Assembly (NCBI GenBank): GCA_002709305.1
Contig: PAQM01000002.1
Span: 1-43,652, forward strand
Source of the DNA: Crocinitomicaceae bacterium
GTDB lineage: Bacteria; Bacteroidota; Bacteroidia; Flavobacteriales_D; Crocinitomicaceae
DNA: 43,652 bases
Direction: 5' to 3'
Below the pieces are notes generated by a model, which saw only the letters and a program-made list of their open reading frames with translations, did not search any database and had not been told where the DNA came from. Shown here one piece after another: positions 12,077-17,309 of the stretch (position 1 is its first letter; every line of letters begins with the position of its first letter). The position numbers were made by a program, and so were the translations under genes.

Positions 12077-12116
12077 CAATTTGTTTAACTTTGCAACTAA
12101 ATACTTAAACAAATTG
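12077..12116 (+). promoter_or_regulatory. merR/B12-regulator promoter and dyad operator
   Basis: A perfect 12-bp inverted repeat (CAATTTGTTTAA at 12077-12088 and TTAAACAAATTG at 12105-12116) contains the dyad TTTGTTTAAC-N14-CTTAAACAAA at 12080-12113. The Bacteroidota -7 box TAACTTTG (12086-12093) lies across the left arm. No clear -33 TTG was found. The same dyad occurs twice upstream of the FAS1 gene, so autoregulation by the downstream MerR protein is the simplest reading. Confidence 0.75.
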
Positions 12117-13013
12117 CAGGATATAGATAGCTTAAAAAATAAAGAACGTTTTACCATTAAAGATCTAGAAAACTTTACTGGAATAAAAGCCCATACAATT
12201 AGAATATGGGAAAAAAGATATAAGCTACTTGAACCAAAAAGAACTGAAACCAATATAAGGTATTATGACGAGAACGACTTAAAGAAAATACTTAACATTA
12301 ATTTACTTTATAACAACAGTTATAAAATATCAAAAATAGCTCTTTTGAGGGAACAAGAAATTTTTGAAGCCTCCAAATCATTAATTCTAAATTCCTCCAA
12401 TTCAACTTCAGAAGTAGATCAACTTACTCTTGCAATTCTTAAATTCGAGAAGGAAAAAGTCTTGGATATTTTTTCAAAATATTCAAAAAATATTTTCGAG
12501 TTATATGAAAAAATAATTGTCCCTTTTTTAATCAAAGTAGGAGAATTGTGGCAGGTAAATTCTATTCAAATTATTCATGAACATTTTTTCTCAATTTTAT
12601 TTAAAGAATACTTACATGAAAAAATAACAAGTTTAGATGCAACTGACAAATCAAACTCAAATGTTCTATTATTTCTTCATGAAAAAGAAGAACATGAATT
12701 TACGATACTTCTTTATTATTATCTATTCAAATCTAAAGGATATAATTGCTTCTACATGGGACAAAGTGTTCCTATAAGTGATTTAGAATTTGCTATTCCA
12801 AAAATAAAACCAACATACATCTTCACATCTTGTATAGCCAAAATTGAAGAAAAAGAATTTATTACAATAATTGATACGCTACTAACTCATGCTACTGATG
12901 CTAAAATAATAATGAGTGGATATCAAACATCTATGTACAAAAAACTTGTTCCTGAAAGTATCATTCTAATCAATTCCAAGGAAGAATTCGAGAAACTAGC
13001 TCAAAATATTTAG
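12114..13013 (+). CDS. MerR family regulator with cobalamin-binding domain (CarH/LitR type)
   Basis: An N-terminal MerR winged helix (RFTIKDLENFTGIKAHTIRIWEKRY, then RYYDENDLKKIL) is followed by a B12-binding methionine-synthase-like region. In numbering from 12081 the cap helix bundle carries W157-x9-E167-H168, the signature that contacts adenosylcobalamin in CarH. The Rossmann part carries EEHEFT with H205 in the B12 lower-ligand position (usual motif ExHxxG; Gly is Thr here). CarH/LitR proteins repress in the dark as AdoCbl-bound tetramers and release DNA in light. The frame is open from TTG 12081, but the promoter -7 box overlaps it, so TTG 12114 is the likelier start. Three matching dyads flank this gene. 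Confidence 0.86.
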   Translation: MQDIDSLKNKERFTIKDLENFTGIKAHTIRIWEKRYKLLEPKRTETNIRYYDENDLKKILNINLLYNNSYKISKIALLREQEIFEASKSLILNSSNSTSEVDQLTLAILKFEKEKVLDIFSKYSKNIFELYEKIIVPFLIKVGELWQVNSIQIIHEHFFSILFKEYLHEKITSLDATDKSNSNVLLFLHEKEEHEFTILLYYYLFKSKGYNCFYMGQSVPISDLEFAIPKIKPTYIFTSCIAKIEEKEFITIIDTLLTHATDAKIIMSGYQTSMYKKLVPESIILINSKEEFEKLAQNI

Positions 13014-13067
13014 TTTTTTTTAAATATAAATAGCTGTATAACAGGGGTTTACAAAAAAAAGTGAAAT

Positions 13068-13145
13068 TTTGTTTAATTTTTTCTTGTTTTTGTTAAACAA
13101 AATATATTACATTTGTTTAACAAAAAATTATAAACGTTAAACAAA
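13068..13145 (+). promoter_or_regulatory. FAS1-operon promoter with two 34-bp dyad operators
   Basis: Two dyads of the form TTTGTTTAA(C)-N14-GTTAAACAAA lie at 13068-13101 and 13112-13145. Their inner arms also form a perfect 15-bp inverted repeat (13087-13101 with 13112-13126). The promoter is TTG (13084-13086), a 21-base spacer, and the -7 box TACATTTG (13108-13115). The -33 element is inside the first dyad and the -7 overlaps the left arm of the second, so a bound regulator would block polymerase. Predicted transcription starts near 13121. Confidence 0.8.
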
Positions 13146-13149
13146 AAAA

Positions 13150-14724
13150 ATGAAAACAAAACTACTCAAATTAAAAAACGGATTTTTAACTCTAGTTATA
13201 TCTTTTGCTATTTCAAGTAATTTAAATTCGCAAATAACTGTTTTTGATGTTATATCAGGCAGTCCAAATCATTCTTCTTTAGCTGCTGCTATCAATACAG
13301 CTAATCTAACAGGAGCGTTGCAAGATGTAAATGCTACATACACTGTTTTTGCTCCTGATAATAATGCATTTGATAACTTAGCACTTCAACTTGGTACGAA
13401 TATTTCTGGATTATTAGCCCTACCTAATTTATCAGAAATTTTATTATACCACGTTCTAGATGTATCTGTTGATGCTGCTTCAGTAACAAATGGTCTAATA
13501 GCACAACCGTTAAATAATGCTAATACTATTAAGTTAACTAAAACATCCACTGGTAGTGTATATGCTAATCATGCAATGGTAAATGCTGCAGACCTTCAAG
13601 CTGATAACGGAATAGTTCATTCTATAGAAAAAGTCATTTTATCTGACGAGACTGTTGTAGATATAGCAATTGATAATGGATTTTCAACTTTAGCTACTGC
13701 TGTAATAACAGCTGAGTTATTGCCGGCTTTAACAGATCCTTTTTCCACTTTTACAGTATTCGCACCAGACAATAACTCTTTTGATCAATTAGCTGTAGAT
13801 CTTGGTACAGACTTAAATGGAATTTTAGCGCTCCCAAATTTAACAGACATTTTGTTATACCATGTATTAGACGCTAGTGTAGATGCAGCGTCTGTAAGTA
13901 ATGGATTAGTTGCACAACCTTTGTCAACAACAAATACCATCAAAATGACAAAAACTCAATCAGGTATGGTCTATGCAAATCAAGCAAAAGTGGTTACACC
14001 CGATTTAACTTCTTCTAATGGTATAGTTCATACTTTAGATGCAGTTATTTTACCAAATGAAACAGTTGTAGATATTGCTATCGATAACAACTTTACAGCA
14101 TTAACTACTGCAGTAATTACTGCTGAATTACTTCCTGTATTGACAAAACCTCTAGGATCATTTACGGTTTTTGCTCCAACTGACAACGCATTCAATGATT
14201 TAGCATCAAGTTTGAATACTGATATTAATGGTATACTTAACTTACCTAATTTATCAGAAATTTTATTATACCATACAGTTGCAGGAACAGTAATGTCCTC
14301 TGACTTAGTATCAGGTCCTGTAACTACAATTGAGGGAACAGAAATTTTTGTAGATCTTAGTTCTGGAGTAGTTATTAATGATGCAAATGTTACTACACCT
14401 GATATTAATGCAGACAATGGTGTAGTACATGTAATTGATAAAGTATTATTATCTCAATTTGCAAGTATTGAAACAATAAATGAAGATACAGATATCAGAA
14501 TTTATCCAAATCCTGCATCTAGTTTCATTGACATTAATTTAGATGCAAAAAAATACTCAAAATTATTTATAATCAATCCTGAAGGAAAAATTATAATAAA
14601 GCATGATCTCAAATCAGATCAAACTAGAATAGATGTGAAAAATCTAATTCATGGAAGCTATTTAATAAAAGTCATGGGAGATAGTGGAGAGAAAGCAAAG
14701 AAAATATTTATTTCAAATAAATGA
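13150..14724 (+). CDS. Secreted triple fasciclin (FAS1) domain protein with T9SS type A tail
   Basis: The 524-residue protein has a signal peptide (about residues 1-28, ending NLNSQ) and three tandem FAS1 domains (about 30-165, 166-300, 301-435). Each has a TVFAPDNNAF-like H1 motif and a NGIVHSIEKVIL-like H2 motif. The first two domains share DVSVDAASVTNGL-type segments and look recently duplicated. A C-terminal T9SS type A domain follows (IRIYPNPASSFIDI to HGSYLIKV). FAS1 domains mediate adhesion or bind small molecules; one FAS1-family group binds carotenoids, so light-related roles are possible. It is the first gene after the double operator and the most likely direct target of the B12 regulator. 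Confidence 0.92.
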   Translation: MKTKLLKLKNGFLTLVISFAISSNLNSQITVFDVISGSPNHSSLAAAINTANLTGALQDVNATYTVFAPDNNAFDNLALQLGTNISGLLALPNLSEILLYHVLDVSVDAASVTNGLIAQPLNNANTIKLTKTSTGSVYANHAMVNAADLQADNGIVHSIEKVILSDETVVDIAIDNGFSTLATAVITAELLPALTDPFSTFTVFAPDNNSFDQLAVDLGTDLNGILALPNLTDILLYHVLDASVDAASVSNGLVAQPLSTTNTIKMTKTQSGMVYANQAKVVTPDLTSSNGIVHTLDAVILPNETVVDIAIDNNFTALTTAVITAELLPVLTKPLGSFTVFAPTDNAFNDLASSLNTDINGILNLPNLSEILLYHTVAGTVMSSDLVSGPVTTIEGTEIFVDLSSGVVINDANVTTPDINADNGVVHVIDKVLLSQFASIETINEDTDIRIYPNPASSFIDINLDAKKYSKLFIINPEGKIIIKHDLKSDQTRIDVKNLIHGSYLIKVMGDSGEKAKKIFISNK

Positions 14725-14856: not shown

Positions 14857-15330
14857 ATGATTAAAATCCAAAACATATCAGGTCTTTACAAGATAACATC
14901 CAGCCAACATGTGGATGCCAAACTAGACAAAGTATGGGACTATTATTCTAGACCATCTAATCTTGAATCAATTACACCTAAAAGTTTATCATTCAAAATA
15001 CTAAATAACCCTATTGAAGAGATGAAAGAAGGTGATATCATAAAGTTTAAAATGAGATTACTTCCTTTAATAAACATCAGTTGGGTTACTGAAATAAAAT
15101 CGATAAAATCTTTAAAATACTTTGTTGATGAACAAAAAATAGGACCTTACAAACTCTGGCACCACAGACACAGCTTTGAAGCCAATCGTTTTGGTACTAC
15201 AATAACTGACGAAATACACTTTGCATTGCCATTAAAATTTATTTCAAACATCCTTTATACATTGTTTTTAAAGAAAAAACTCAAAGAAATATTTGAATAT
15301 AGAAACAAAAGAATAATTAACTTTTTATAA
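14857..15330 (+). CDS. SRPBCC (START-like) family protein
   Basis: This 157-residue protein has the SRPBCC hydrophobic-ligand-binding fold: LYKITSSQHVDAKLDKVWDYYSRPSNLESITP, then DIIKFKMRLLPLINISWVTEI, FVDEQKIGPYKLWHHRHSFE and TITDEIHFALPL. Similar proteins annotated as cyclase/dehydrase-like occur beside SDR and photolyase genes in light-responsive clusters of other bacteria; that is family knowledge, not proven here. The ATG directly follows the terminator tail. It leads a tightly packed cassette: 55-aa membrane protein (7-base gap), 41-aa membrane protein (1 base), SDR (1 base). Substrate unknown. Confidence 0.83.
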   Translation: MIKIQNISGLYKITSSQHVDAKLDKVWDYYSRPSNLESITPKSLSFKILNNPIEEMKEGDIIKFKMRLLPLINISWVTEIKSIKSLKYFVDEQKIGPYKLWHHRHSFEANRFGTTITDEIHFALPLKFISNILYTLFLKKKLKEIFEYRNKRIINFL

Positions 15331-15337
15331 AACTACT

Positions 15338-15505
15338 ATGAACTTTATTGAGAAATACTACCCTGTTGTCCTTGCTTTTATCAGTTTTCTTCTATCAGTA
15401 ACACTATGGTTTACAGGACAGAAAGACGAAGGTATGTTTGTTGGTATATGGGTACCATCAATCTTGTGCTTTGCTATATTCATAAGACTTGTCAAAAACG
15501 ATTAA
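15338..15505 (+). CDS. 55-residue two-helix membrane protein
   Basis: The ATG at 15338 begins 55 residues (MNFIEKYYPVVLAFISFLLS to IFIRLVKND). There are two hydrophobic segments (about 8-26 and 33-50) joined by a polar loop, TGQKDEGMF. It is only 7 bases after the SRPBCC stop and one base before the next ATG, which strongly supports a real gene. I recall similar unnamed proteins near SDR/photolyase genes, but no named family can be assigned. Confidence 0.72.
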   Translation: MNFIEKYYPVVLAFISFLLSVTLWFTGQKDEGMFVGIWVPSILCFAIFIRLVKND

Positions 15506-15506
15506 A

Positions 15507-15632
15507 ATGGAAAACTTAACTCTATTTCTAGTTGGATTTTCAATTTTTAGTGCATACATGTTCTTTCTTTTAAGAATGATATGGAAACAACATAACATAC
15601 AAAAAAAAGAAAATTCTTCTAAAATTAAATAA
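15507..15632 (+). CDS. 41-residue single-pass membrane protein
   Basis: ATG 15507 to TAA 15630-15632 encodes 41 residues. One hydrophobic helix (LTLFLVGFSIFSAYMFFLLR) is followed by a strongly basic tail ending KKENSSKIK. It is one base after the 55-aa gene and one base before the SDR gene, so it is probably translated with them. The positive tail predicts a cytoplasmic C-terminus. No known family; it may form a membrane complex with its neighbour. Confidence 0.65.
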   Translation: MENLTLFLVGFSIFSAYMFFLLRMIWKQHNIQKKENSSKIK

Positions 15633-15633
15633 A

Positions 15634-16326
15634 ATGAAAAATATTTTAATAATAGGTGGTTCATCAGGAATCGGGAGAGATGTTGTAAAAAAAATGACAG
15701 AAAACAACTGCAATGTTTTTGCCTCTTTCAACTCCAATAATGAATTCGAATCAAACACAAATTATTTCCATCTAGATGTTATGGAGCAGGAGTTAAACTT
15801 AGATTTTCTTCCTGATGTAATTGATGGTCTTGTATATTGTCCTGGATCAATTAACCTTAAACCATTTAAAAGAATTTCACCAAAAGATTTTACCAAAGAT
15901 TTCGAACTTCAGGTCGTTGGTGCAATTAAAGTGATTCAATCATTACTCAAAAAACTAGATAAATCTGAAAATGCTTCTATTGTTTTATTTTCAACTGTAG
16001 CTGTAAAATTAGGCTTTAATTTCCATACACAAGTTGCGTCTTCAAAAGGTGCAATTGAAGGTTTAACTAAATCTCTAGCAGCTGAGTTATCACCTAACAT
16101 AAGAGTCAATTGTATAGCACCATCATTAACAAAAACTCCTCTTTCATCAAAGCTATTAAATAGCGAAGAAAAAGTGATTAATAATGCTAATAGACATCCT
16201 CTCAAAAGAATAGGAAATTGCAATGATATTTCGTCATTTGTTGAGTTTTTATTATCTGAAAAATCTTCATGGATTACAGGACAAGTAATTCAAATTGATG
16301 GTGGTATCTCTTCGCTCAAAATTTAA
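15634..16326 (+). CDS. SDR family protein lacking the catalytic Tyr
   Basis: This 230-residue Rossmann protein has the NAD(P)-binding GGSSGIG (residues 8-14), LVYCPGSIN in the NNAG position, a candidate catalytic Ser in LFSTVAV (about 120), SSKGAIEGLTKSLAAEL with K138, IRVNCIAPSLTKTPL, and the C-terminal WITGQVIQIDGG. The active-site YxxxK reads V134-A-S-S-K138, so the general-acid Tyr is replaced by Val. As I recall, related SDR proteins in photolyase clusters also lack this Tyr, which suggests a family trait, not damage. It may bind cofactor without classical oxidoreduction. It follows the 41-aa gene by one base. Confidence 0.85.
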   Translation: MKNILIIGGSSGIGRDVVKKMTENNCNVFASFNSNNEFESNTNYFHLDVMEQELNLDFLPDVIDGLVYCPGSINLKPFKRISPKDFTKDFELQVVGAIKVIQSLLKKLDKSENASIVLFSTVAVKLGFNFHTQVASSKGAIEGLTKSLAAELSPNIRVNCIAPSLTKTPLSSKLLNSEEKVINNANRHPLKRIGNCNDISSFVEFLLSEKSSWITGQVIQIDGGISSLKI

Positions 16327-16364: not shown

Positions 16365-17309
16365 ATGAAATATAAGAATAGTAGAAGAAAATTTCTTAGA
16401 AACACATCATTATCGCTACTATCCATTGCCGCTTTTCCATCTGTTGTTAACTCCGCTACTTCTAAGAAAAATGACACAAAAGATTCATGTGACGAAACAA
16501 CATTGGATGCATATGGCCAAGGACCCTTTTATACTGCAAATGCTCCGTTGATTCAAAATAATCAACTTGCAAATATAAATGAAAGTGGAGAAAGAATTAT
16601 TATTAGTGGACAGGTATATAACCTAGATTGTTCTGAGGCTATCCCTAACACAGAAATTGATGTTTGGCATGCTAATAATCTAGGTGAATATGATAATTTT
16701 GGCTACAACCTTAGGGGGAAAACAATGTCAAATAGTCAAGGTTATTACATCTTTGAATCCATTAAACCTGGTTTATATCTTAATGGTTCAACTTATAGAC
16801 CATCTCATATTCATTTTAAAATAACACCACCAGGTTTTAATACTCTTATTACACAACTATATTTTGAAAATGATCCATACATACCTACTGATGCAGCTGC
16901 TTCTATTACTAGCGGACAATATGATGCCACTAATAGAATTATTCCATTAACACAAAATACTAGTGGAGACCTTGAAGGTACTTGGGATATTATTATAAAT
17001 GGAGATGGTATTCCAATTGTTGGAATGAACAACCTTCACCTTAGTAAAGGAATGATTTATAATGCATATCCCAACCCATTTGTTGATGAAATTGAAATCA
17101 ATTATGGTGTTTTTCAAAAGGGAAATGTAAAAATATCAGTACACGACATTAATGGTCAAATGGTAGCAACACTTAATCAAAAGATGTTAGAACCTGAAAA
17201 ATATCAAATAGTTTGGAGGCCACATATTGATTTACCAAAAGGACATTACTTCATTTCAATAGTGATGAACGATATGCAAGTTCACTATATAAAAGTTCTC
17301 AAACAATAA
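16365..17309 (+). CDS. Intradiol-dioxygenase-like protein with Tat signal and T9SS tail
   Basis: The 314-residue protein opens with SRRKFLRNTSLSLLSIAAF, a good twin-arginine signal. The middle matches the protocatechuate 3,4-dioxygenase / intradiol family: LDAYGQGPFYTANAP, GQVYNLDCSEAIPNTEIDVWHANNLGEYDN, GYYIFESIKPG and YRPSHIHFKI. The Fe(III) ligands Tyr, Tyr, His, His are visible (GEY, TYRPSHIHF). About 85 C-terminal residues form a T9SS type A domain (NAYPNPFVDEIEI to GHYFISIV). The family cleaves catechols between the hydroxyls; secreted members in Bacteroidota have unknown substrates. It starts 38 bases after the SDR gene and may extend that operon. Confidence 0.87.
   Translation: MKYKNSRRKFLRNTSLSLLSIAAFPSVVNSATSKKNDTKDSCDETTLDAYGQGPFYTANAPLIQNNQLANINESGERIIISGQVYNLDCSEAIPNTEIDVWHANNLGEYDNFGYNLRGKTMSNSQGYYIFESIKPGLYLNGSTYRPSHIHFKITPPGFNTLITQLYFENDPYIPTDAAASITSGQYDATNRIIPLTQNTSGDLEGTWDIIINGDGIPIVGMNNLHLSKGMIYNAYPNPFVDEIEINYGVFQKGNVKISVHDINGQMVATLNQKMLEPEKYQIVWRPHIDLPKGHYFISIVMNDMQVHYIKVLKQ

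Follow-up and report, generated by a model that had tools for sequence, protein, structure and literature searches.

The closest described relatives of the regulator studied here are the CarH or class I LitR proteins of Thermus, Myxococcus and Bacillus. According to the available sections of two papers, the operators of known CarH proteins are tandem 11-bp direct repeats (PMC9304148, PMC8156234). For the class II LitR proteins of Pseudomonas (PplR and PmlR2), the available sections of another paper describe light induction of a photolyase, a cryptochrome-like protein, folE and other pterin genes, and a short-chain dehydrogenase (SDR; PMC9758184). Class II LitR consists of a helix bundle only, and PmlR2 is driven by a LOV protein. 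In another arrangement, reportedly represented by LitR/LitS of Streptomyces, LitR occurs together with an ECF sigma factor gene. MliR, a MerR-type regulator of Bacteroidetes, lacks an effector domain as far as its available description goes, and was rejected as a counterpart of the window protein.

The stretch of DNA analysed here (the window, 43,652 nucleotides) encodes a regulator that resembles CarH/class I LitR in its MerR head, its four-helix and B12 domains, its W-x9-EH motif and ligand histidine, and the TnnACA core of its presumed target. It differs from CarH in the half-sites, which are inverted, 25 bp apart and often doubled at 44 bp, and in the predicted regulon, which is broader than carotenoids and includes proteorhodopsin. 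The kinds of targets are the same as those of class II LitR in Pseudomonas, to the extent that the available sections describe them; however, the structural model of the window protein comprises the whole CarH-like fold, which rules out the bundle-only architecture of class II LitR. We estimate a probability of about 80% that the window encodes an autoregulated, B12-dependent light repressor of a photoprotection and phototrophy regulon, with the inverted repeats (dyads) in Table 1 as its operators.

Table 1. Features of the window around the regulator gene (merR) and the FAS1 gene.
Feature	Position	Strand	Remarks
Dyad 1, candidate operator	12080..12113	.	Abuts merR start codon; spans predicted -7 box and start point (~12098)
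Predicted merR -7 box TAACTTTG	12086..12093	+	Fits consensus TAnnTTTG; no TTG at expected -33 place
MerR-type regulator, B12-binding_2 domain, CarH-like	12114..13013	+	299 aa, TTG start
Dyad 2, candidate operator	13068..13101	.	44 bp upstream of dyad 3; TTG 13084-13086 at centre
Predicted -33 element TTG, FAS1 promoter	13084..13086	+	
Predicted FAS1-promoter -7 box TACATTTG	13108..13115	+	TTTG = first four bases of dyad 3
Dyad 3, candidate operator	13112..13145	.	Covers end of -7 box and predicted start point (~13120)
Secreted protein, three fasciclin (FAS1) stretches and Por secretion tail	13150..14724	+	
157-aa protein	14857..15330	+	Weak Polyketide_cyc2 match below cut-off; BLAST relatives behind dyads in other genomes
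55-aa protein	15338..15505	+	No Pfam family; relatives behind dyads in G015, G020, G033
47-aa protein	15489..15632	+	No Pfam family; one relative behind dyad in G020
Short-chain dehydrogenase (SDR)	15634..16326	+	Last likely operon gene; operon inferred from spacing
Intradiol-dioxygenase-domain protein, Por tail	16365..17309	+	38 bp after SDR; operon membership uncertain

The residues of the W-x9-EH motif are key residues of CarH. The motif and the ligand histidine, both reported in the earlier note, were present in the window protein as W146, E156, H157 and H194; among 28 aligned relatives W146, E156 and H194 were invariant and H157 nearly so. The N-terminal helix-turn-helix matched PF13411 (2e-14) and aligned to the CarH head, the region of the four-helix bundle matched PF02607 (B12-binding_2), and Pfam at a threshold of 0.001 reported no second B12 domain besides the latter. 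The AlphaFold2 model (pLDDT 89.6) had CarH as its top fold matches in Foldseek over ~300 columns, the closest solved structures being 5c8d, 5c8e and 3whp. The TM-scores were 0.47–0.56 by query length (full-length chains) and 0.73–0.79 by target length (CarH B12-domain chains). In this predicted model a B12-binding Rossmann domain with the ligand histidine is present. The CarH equivalog of NCBIfam was the best-matching family, yet at 74.2 bits against a cut-off of 400, so the protein was considered a distant branch of CarH. The glycine found in CarH three residues past the ligand histidine is a threonine in the window protein and is variable among the relatives. A cobalamin adenosyltransferase is encoded in the same genome. 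AdoCbl binding and a light response of the window protein are predictions from its family and from the genes that it is proposed to control.

All three dyad copies claimed in the earlier note are exact matches to TTTGTTTAA-N16-TTAAACAAA, a pattern that did not occur in 100 shuffles of the window. Their identical spacing was confirmed, but the claimed 14 bases were replaced by perfect 9-bp arms around a 16-bp spacer: the tenth base behind the 14-base count pairs in the third copy alone, the second having T/G and the first C/C at this position. A search of the genome with a 14-base spacer, 8-base arms and up to two mismatches gave 14 matches vs. 15 for the control, which is chance level. The whole genome (2.32 Mb, 99.7% complete) contained six exact dyad copies, and the reversed-pattern control had none. 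With up to three mismatches the pattern was at chance level (41 vs. 41) and uninformative in a single genome, as would be expected of a chance pattern or repeat family in AT-rich DNA. Exact and one-mismatch sites lay far above the control, and the spacer was fixed, the 44-bp phase recurrent and the targets coherent; the reversed-pattern controls already refute an origin by chance or repeats, to which we assign a nearly negligible probability.

Across all loci scanned, part of which had been chosen by the 16-base pattern, the spacer was 16 bases long at 115 sites, 17 at 12 and of any other length from 8 to 25 at three. At 80 loci selected by protein, with up to one mismatch, 37 sites had spacer 16 and 12 had spacer 17, and the control gave 0 and 0. 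The spacer length is thus specific. The sequence TAAACA, present in each arm, fits the core TnnACA of the CarH half-site. Two same-strand TnnACA motifs 11 bp apart, as in the tandem repeats of CarH, were found in 4 of 114 site segments, which is level with neighbouring spacings; same-strand pairs clustered at 21 bp (33) and 44 bp (29). The tandem repeat nnnnTnnACAn was therefore ruled out as the operator form, the half-sites being inverted instead. The 12 sites with a 17-base spacer (L159, L175, L183, L189, L196, L215, L216, L219, L223, and others) form a second dyad class.

In the available part of the relevant paper, the -7 box has the consensus TAnnTTTG and spans -12 to -5 (PMC9723704). Both -7 boxes proposed earlier lie where they had been placed. 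The FAS1 box fits a recurrent register and the merR box sits elsewhere in its own dyad. The register was examined in 78 listed sites, from the window's own genome and regions fetched around listed dyads (27 genomes): at 38 of them a -7 box began four bases ahead of an arm, its TTTG coinciding with the four opening bases of that arm, and at 7 sites it lay one 44-bp step further on (both registers together, 43/78). Among 44 distinct pairs of dyad neighbours within 250 bp (one partner with up to three mismatches), 21 were exactly 44 bp apart, vs. 0/8 neighbours of the control pattern. A TTG was centred in the upstream dyad in 12 of 13 distinct tandem pairs, the FAS1 promoter of the window among them; these pairs had been chosen because their downstream dyad carried a -7 box in register. 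If the -7 box occupies -12 to -5, as in the sections available, the FAS1 transcript is predicted to start at 13120, inside dyad 3. A dyad over the -7 box and start point is therefore placed where a repressor would close the promoter, and repression fits this geometry. The -7 register occurred at just 4 of the 37 protein-selected sites, so this layout appears to be lineage-specific. The merR reading frame has no ATG near its start, and the TTG at 12114 is the likely start codon; in G015 and G007, too, the distance between a dyad and the start of merR is at most 3 bp.

The targets claimed in the earlier note, merR and the FAS1 operon, were retained, but the claim proved too narrow. Genes for DNA photolyases and a DASH cryptochrome are further predicted targets, as are those for the synthesis of pterin, for proteorhodopsin and for the synthesis of retinal. 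One exact dyad stands upstream of an operon for 6-pyruvoyl-tetrahydropterin synthase (PTPS), GTP cyclohydrolase I, an 80-aa protein with no Pfam match, and DNA photolyase (L005). Another precedes genes for a flavin reductase, a DASH cryptochrome (TIGR02765, above cut-off), the photolyase-related protein DPRP and a TIGR03643 protein, and a glutathione peroxidase gene lies divergently to them (L007). A further exact copy separates a TonB-dependent receptor gene from an O-methyltransferase gene (L006). A two-mismatch copy (C24:45133) precedes a gene of the bacteriorhodopsin family, behind which lies a lycopene cyclase-Blh fusion gene. Alone it would not stand out; it counts because it is common to orthologues. 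The 157-aa protein of the FAS1 operon is presumably of the SRPBCC type. The intradiol-dioxygenase-domain gene was linked to a dyad in the window's own genome only. The pair of receptor and O-methyltransferase with its dyad (L006 5509-8681, C18) also exists in G008 and G010, and the TIGR03643/DUF2805 gene (L007 11698-11982) was in dyad-headed operons of three genomes, namely the window's own, G015 and G022.

In 60 genomes (the window's own and 59 relatives), a dyad with up to one mismatch was found in 41 and the control pattern in 3. A gene type on the reference list stood behind 68 of the 78 listed sites (10 without), although this list, labelled by BLAST at 1e-6, is partly circular because some types entered it from genes next to dyads. 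Gene types were counted in the window's own genome and in 60 regions drawn from part of the listed sites, so the numbers of genomes are lower bounds: FAS1 and the 157-aa protein, at least 9 each; SOUL and TonB receptor, at least 8 each; SDR and PTPS, at least 7 each; FolE and merR, at least 6 each; CrtI-like, flavin reductase, TetR-type and glutathione peroxidase, at least 5 each; rhodopsin, 55-aa protein and a type that we take to be AlkB-like, at least 4 each; and others. Genes of the genus were also fetched regardless of dyads, although their types had themselves been picked from the regulon. With up to two mismatches, a dyad preceded 8/9 rhodopsins (those above the family cut-off, from 11 matches in 34 genomes), 14/18 light-type folE genes (the folE loci cover 30 of the 34 genomes) and 15/16 FAS1 genes (one locus per genome), while the reversed-pattern control gave 0. 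Four light-type folE genes, one of them having no upstream sequence, and one rhodopsin were without a dyad. No dyad was found upstream of the low-identity folE of 12 further genomes (0/12) or of the second folE copies in the same 18 genomes as the light-type folE (0/18). The latter is the better control because 7 of the 12 genomes had no MerR match.

The dyad thus marks repair, pigment and light-driven pump genes in many relatives, and so is very likely bound by a light-sensing repressor. It might instead be bound by a MerR protein that responds to cobalamin status or oxidative stress, as CarA-like proteins do, or that depends on a partner photoreceptor, as class II LitR does on LOV. B12-independent CarA and LOV-controlled class II LitR have the same kinds of targets in the literature sections available, and the glutathione peroxidase and SOUL genes behind dyads would suit oxidative stress; the retention of W, EH and the ligand histidine in the 28 aligned relatives and the adenosyltransferase gene argue against this explanation, which we regard as unlikely.

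The co-occurrence of dyad and regulator gene was analysed in 295 other genomes of the class (completeness ≥95%) by a Fisher test that ignores kinship. A dyad with up to one mismatch was found in 149/201 genomes with a MerR match (absent from 52) vs. 10/94 without, and two or more dyads in 81/201 vs. 1/94. The control pattern was also commoner in the MerR-positive genomes (24/201 vs. 4/94), which indicated that base composition differs between the two sets. Among 33 genomes of the same genus, 20/21 with and 5/12 without a MerR match had a dyad. The five dyad-bearing genomes without a match would be expected if another regulator, such as a TetR-type protein, bound the dyads and merR were merely one target, and a gene for a TetR_C_23 protein stood behind a dyad in at least 5 of 27 genomes examined. 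The genomes without a match were 76–90% complete. A search by MerR protein alone turned up dyads beside merR across the phylum, and we consider another regulator very improbable. The sole same-genus MerR-positive genome without dyads (G027, L078) had an in-frame stop inside the merR match, possibly a joint loss of regulator and operators; the merR match of G022 likewise had an in-frame stop, yet eight dyads were kept.

The 80 loci found by the MerR protein profile alone (several of them genus genomes again) had a spacer-16 or spacer-17 site with up to two mismatches in 54 cases, and in 26 no site was present within the DNA scanned. A site lay just downstream of merR in 38 loci and just upstream in 12. 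Dyads were therefore conserved in orthologous promoters, which supports the earlier interpretation as an autoregulated repressor of the CarH/LitR type, with binding, light and cobalamin control as predicted properties. The proposed restriction to a Flavobacteriales branch was abandoned: loci of Bacteroidales, Algoriphagus, Spirosoma, Chitinophagaceae and others carry the dyad. Matches to an ECF sigma factor were detected at 46 of the 80 loci, mostly directly after merR, and a CrtI-like gene at 28 (two sigma and two CrtI-like proteins were checked with Pfam). This resembles the case of LitR with an ECF sigma gene and suggests that outside the window's lineage the repressor may act via a sigma relay. 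The window's genus differs in having dyads on the target promoters themselves. There, no ECF match was found in the 1.5-kb flanks of merR examined, and one was located ~1.3 kb from the FAS1 dyad of G007.

The sequence comparisons strongly support the assignment of regulator, putative operator and predicted regulon, and the following mechanism is proposed. In the dark, the AdoCbl-bound MerR/B12 protein, in an oligomeric state taken over from CarH, would hold the dyads and shut promoters that the main sigma factor serves, among them that of merR. Light would break the Co-C bond and release the protein, allowing transcription of photolyases, cryptochrome, pterin-cofactor synthesis, the FAS1 operon, and proteorhodopsin and retinal synthesis. 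Many target promoters would be wrapped by two dyads at a distance of 44 bp, one having the -33 TTG at its centre and the other containing the -7 box with the start point. A wider proposal, to which we give even odds, is that of a phylum-wide Bacteroidota branch of CarH with a new operator grammar. Its half-sites would be inverted at a distance of 25 bp and repeated after 44 bp (four 11-bp units), allowing a single assembly to enclose both promoter boxes, and one B12 photoreceptor would switch on light-damage repair and light harvesting by proteorhodopsin, directly in the window's lineage or by an ECF sigma relay in other families.

Literature searches for the operator or a Bacteroidota CarH regulon gave no description in the titles and abstract beginnings of the matches listed, subscription papers being mostly outside the coverage. 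An inverted, 44-bp-phased operator and proteorhodopsin control in Bacteroidota were thus not met in the literature searched; the fold and similar targets are already known. The operator geometry is unlike the CarH geometries described in the available sections of the literature consulted. The dyad offers a concrete, testable candidate for light switching of proteorhodopsin and photolyase genes in aquatic Bacteroidota, and a DNA signature recognisable in genome and metagenome sequences.

In G052, a sigma-70 gene that encodes regions 1.2 to 4 has two dyads (L092 4940 and 4994) in its upstream DNA, at distances of 171 and 225 bp, which suggests that a primary-type sigma factor is light-controlled in that family. 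A 135-aa protein with no Pfam match ends a rhodopsin operon (L297 3930-4337) and shared 37% identity over 135 residues with the protein directly behind a G007 dyad (L117 3144); the two possibly represent a new light-response family.
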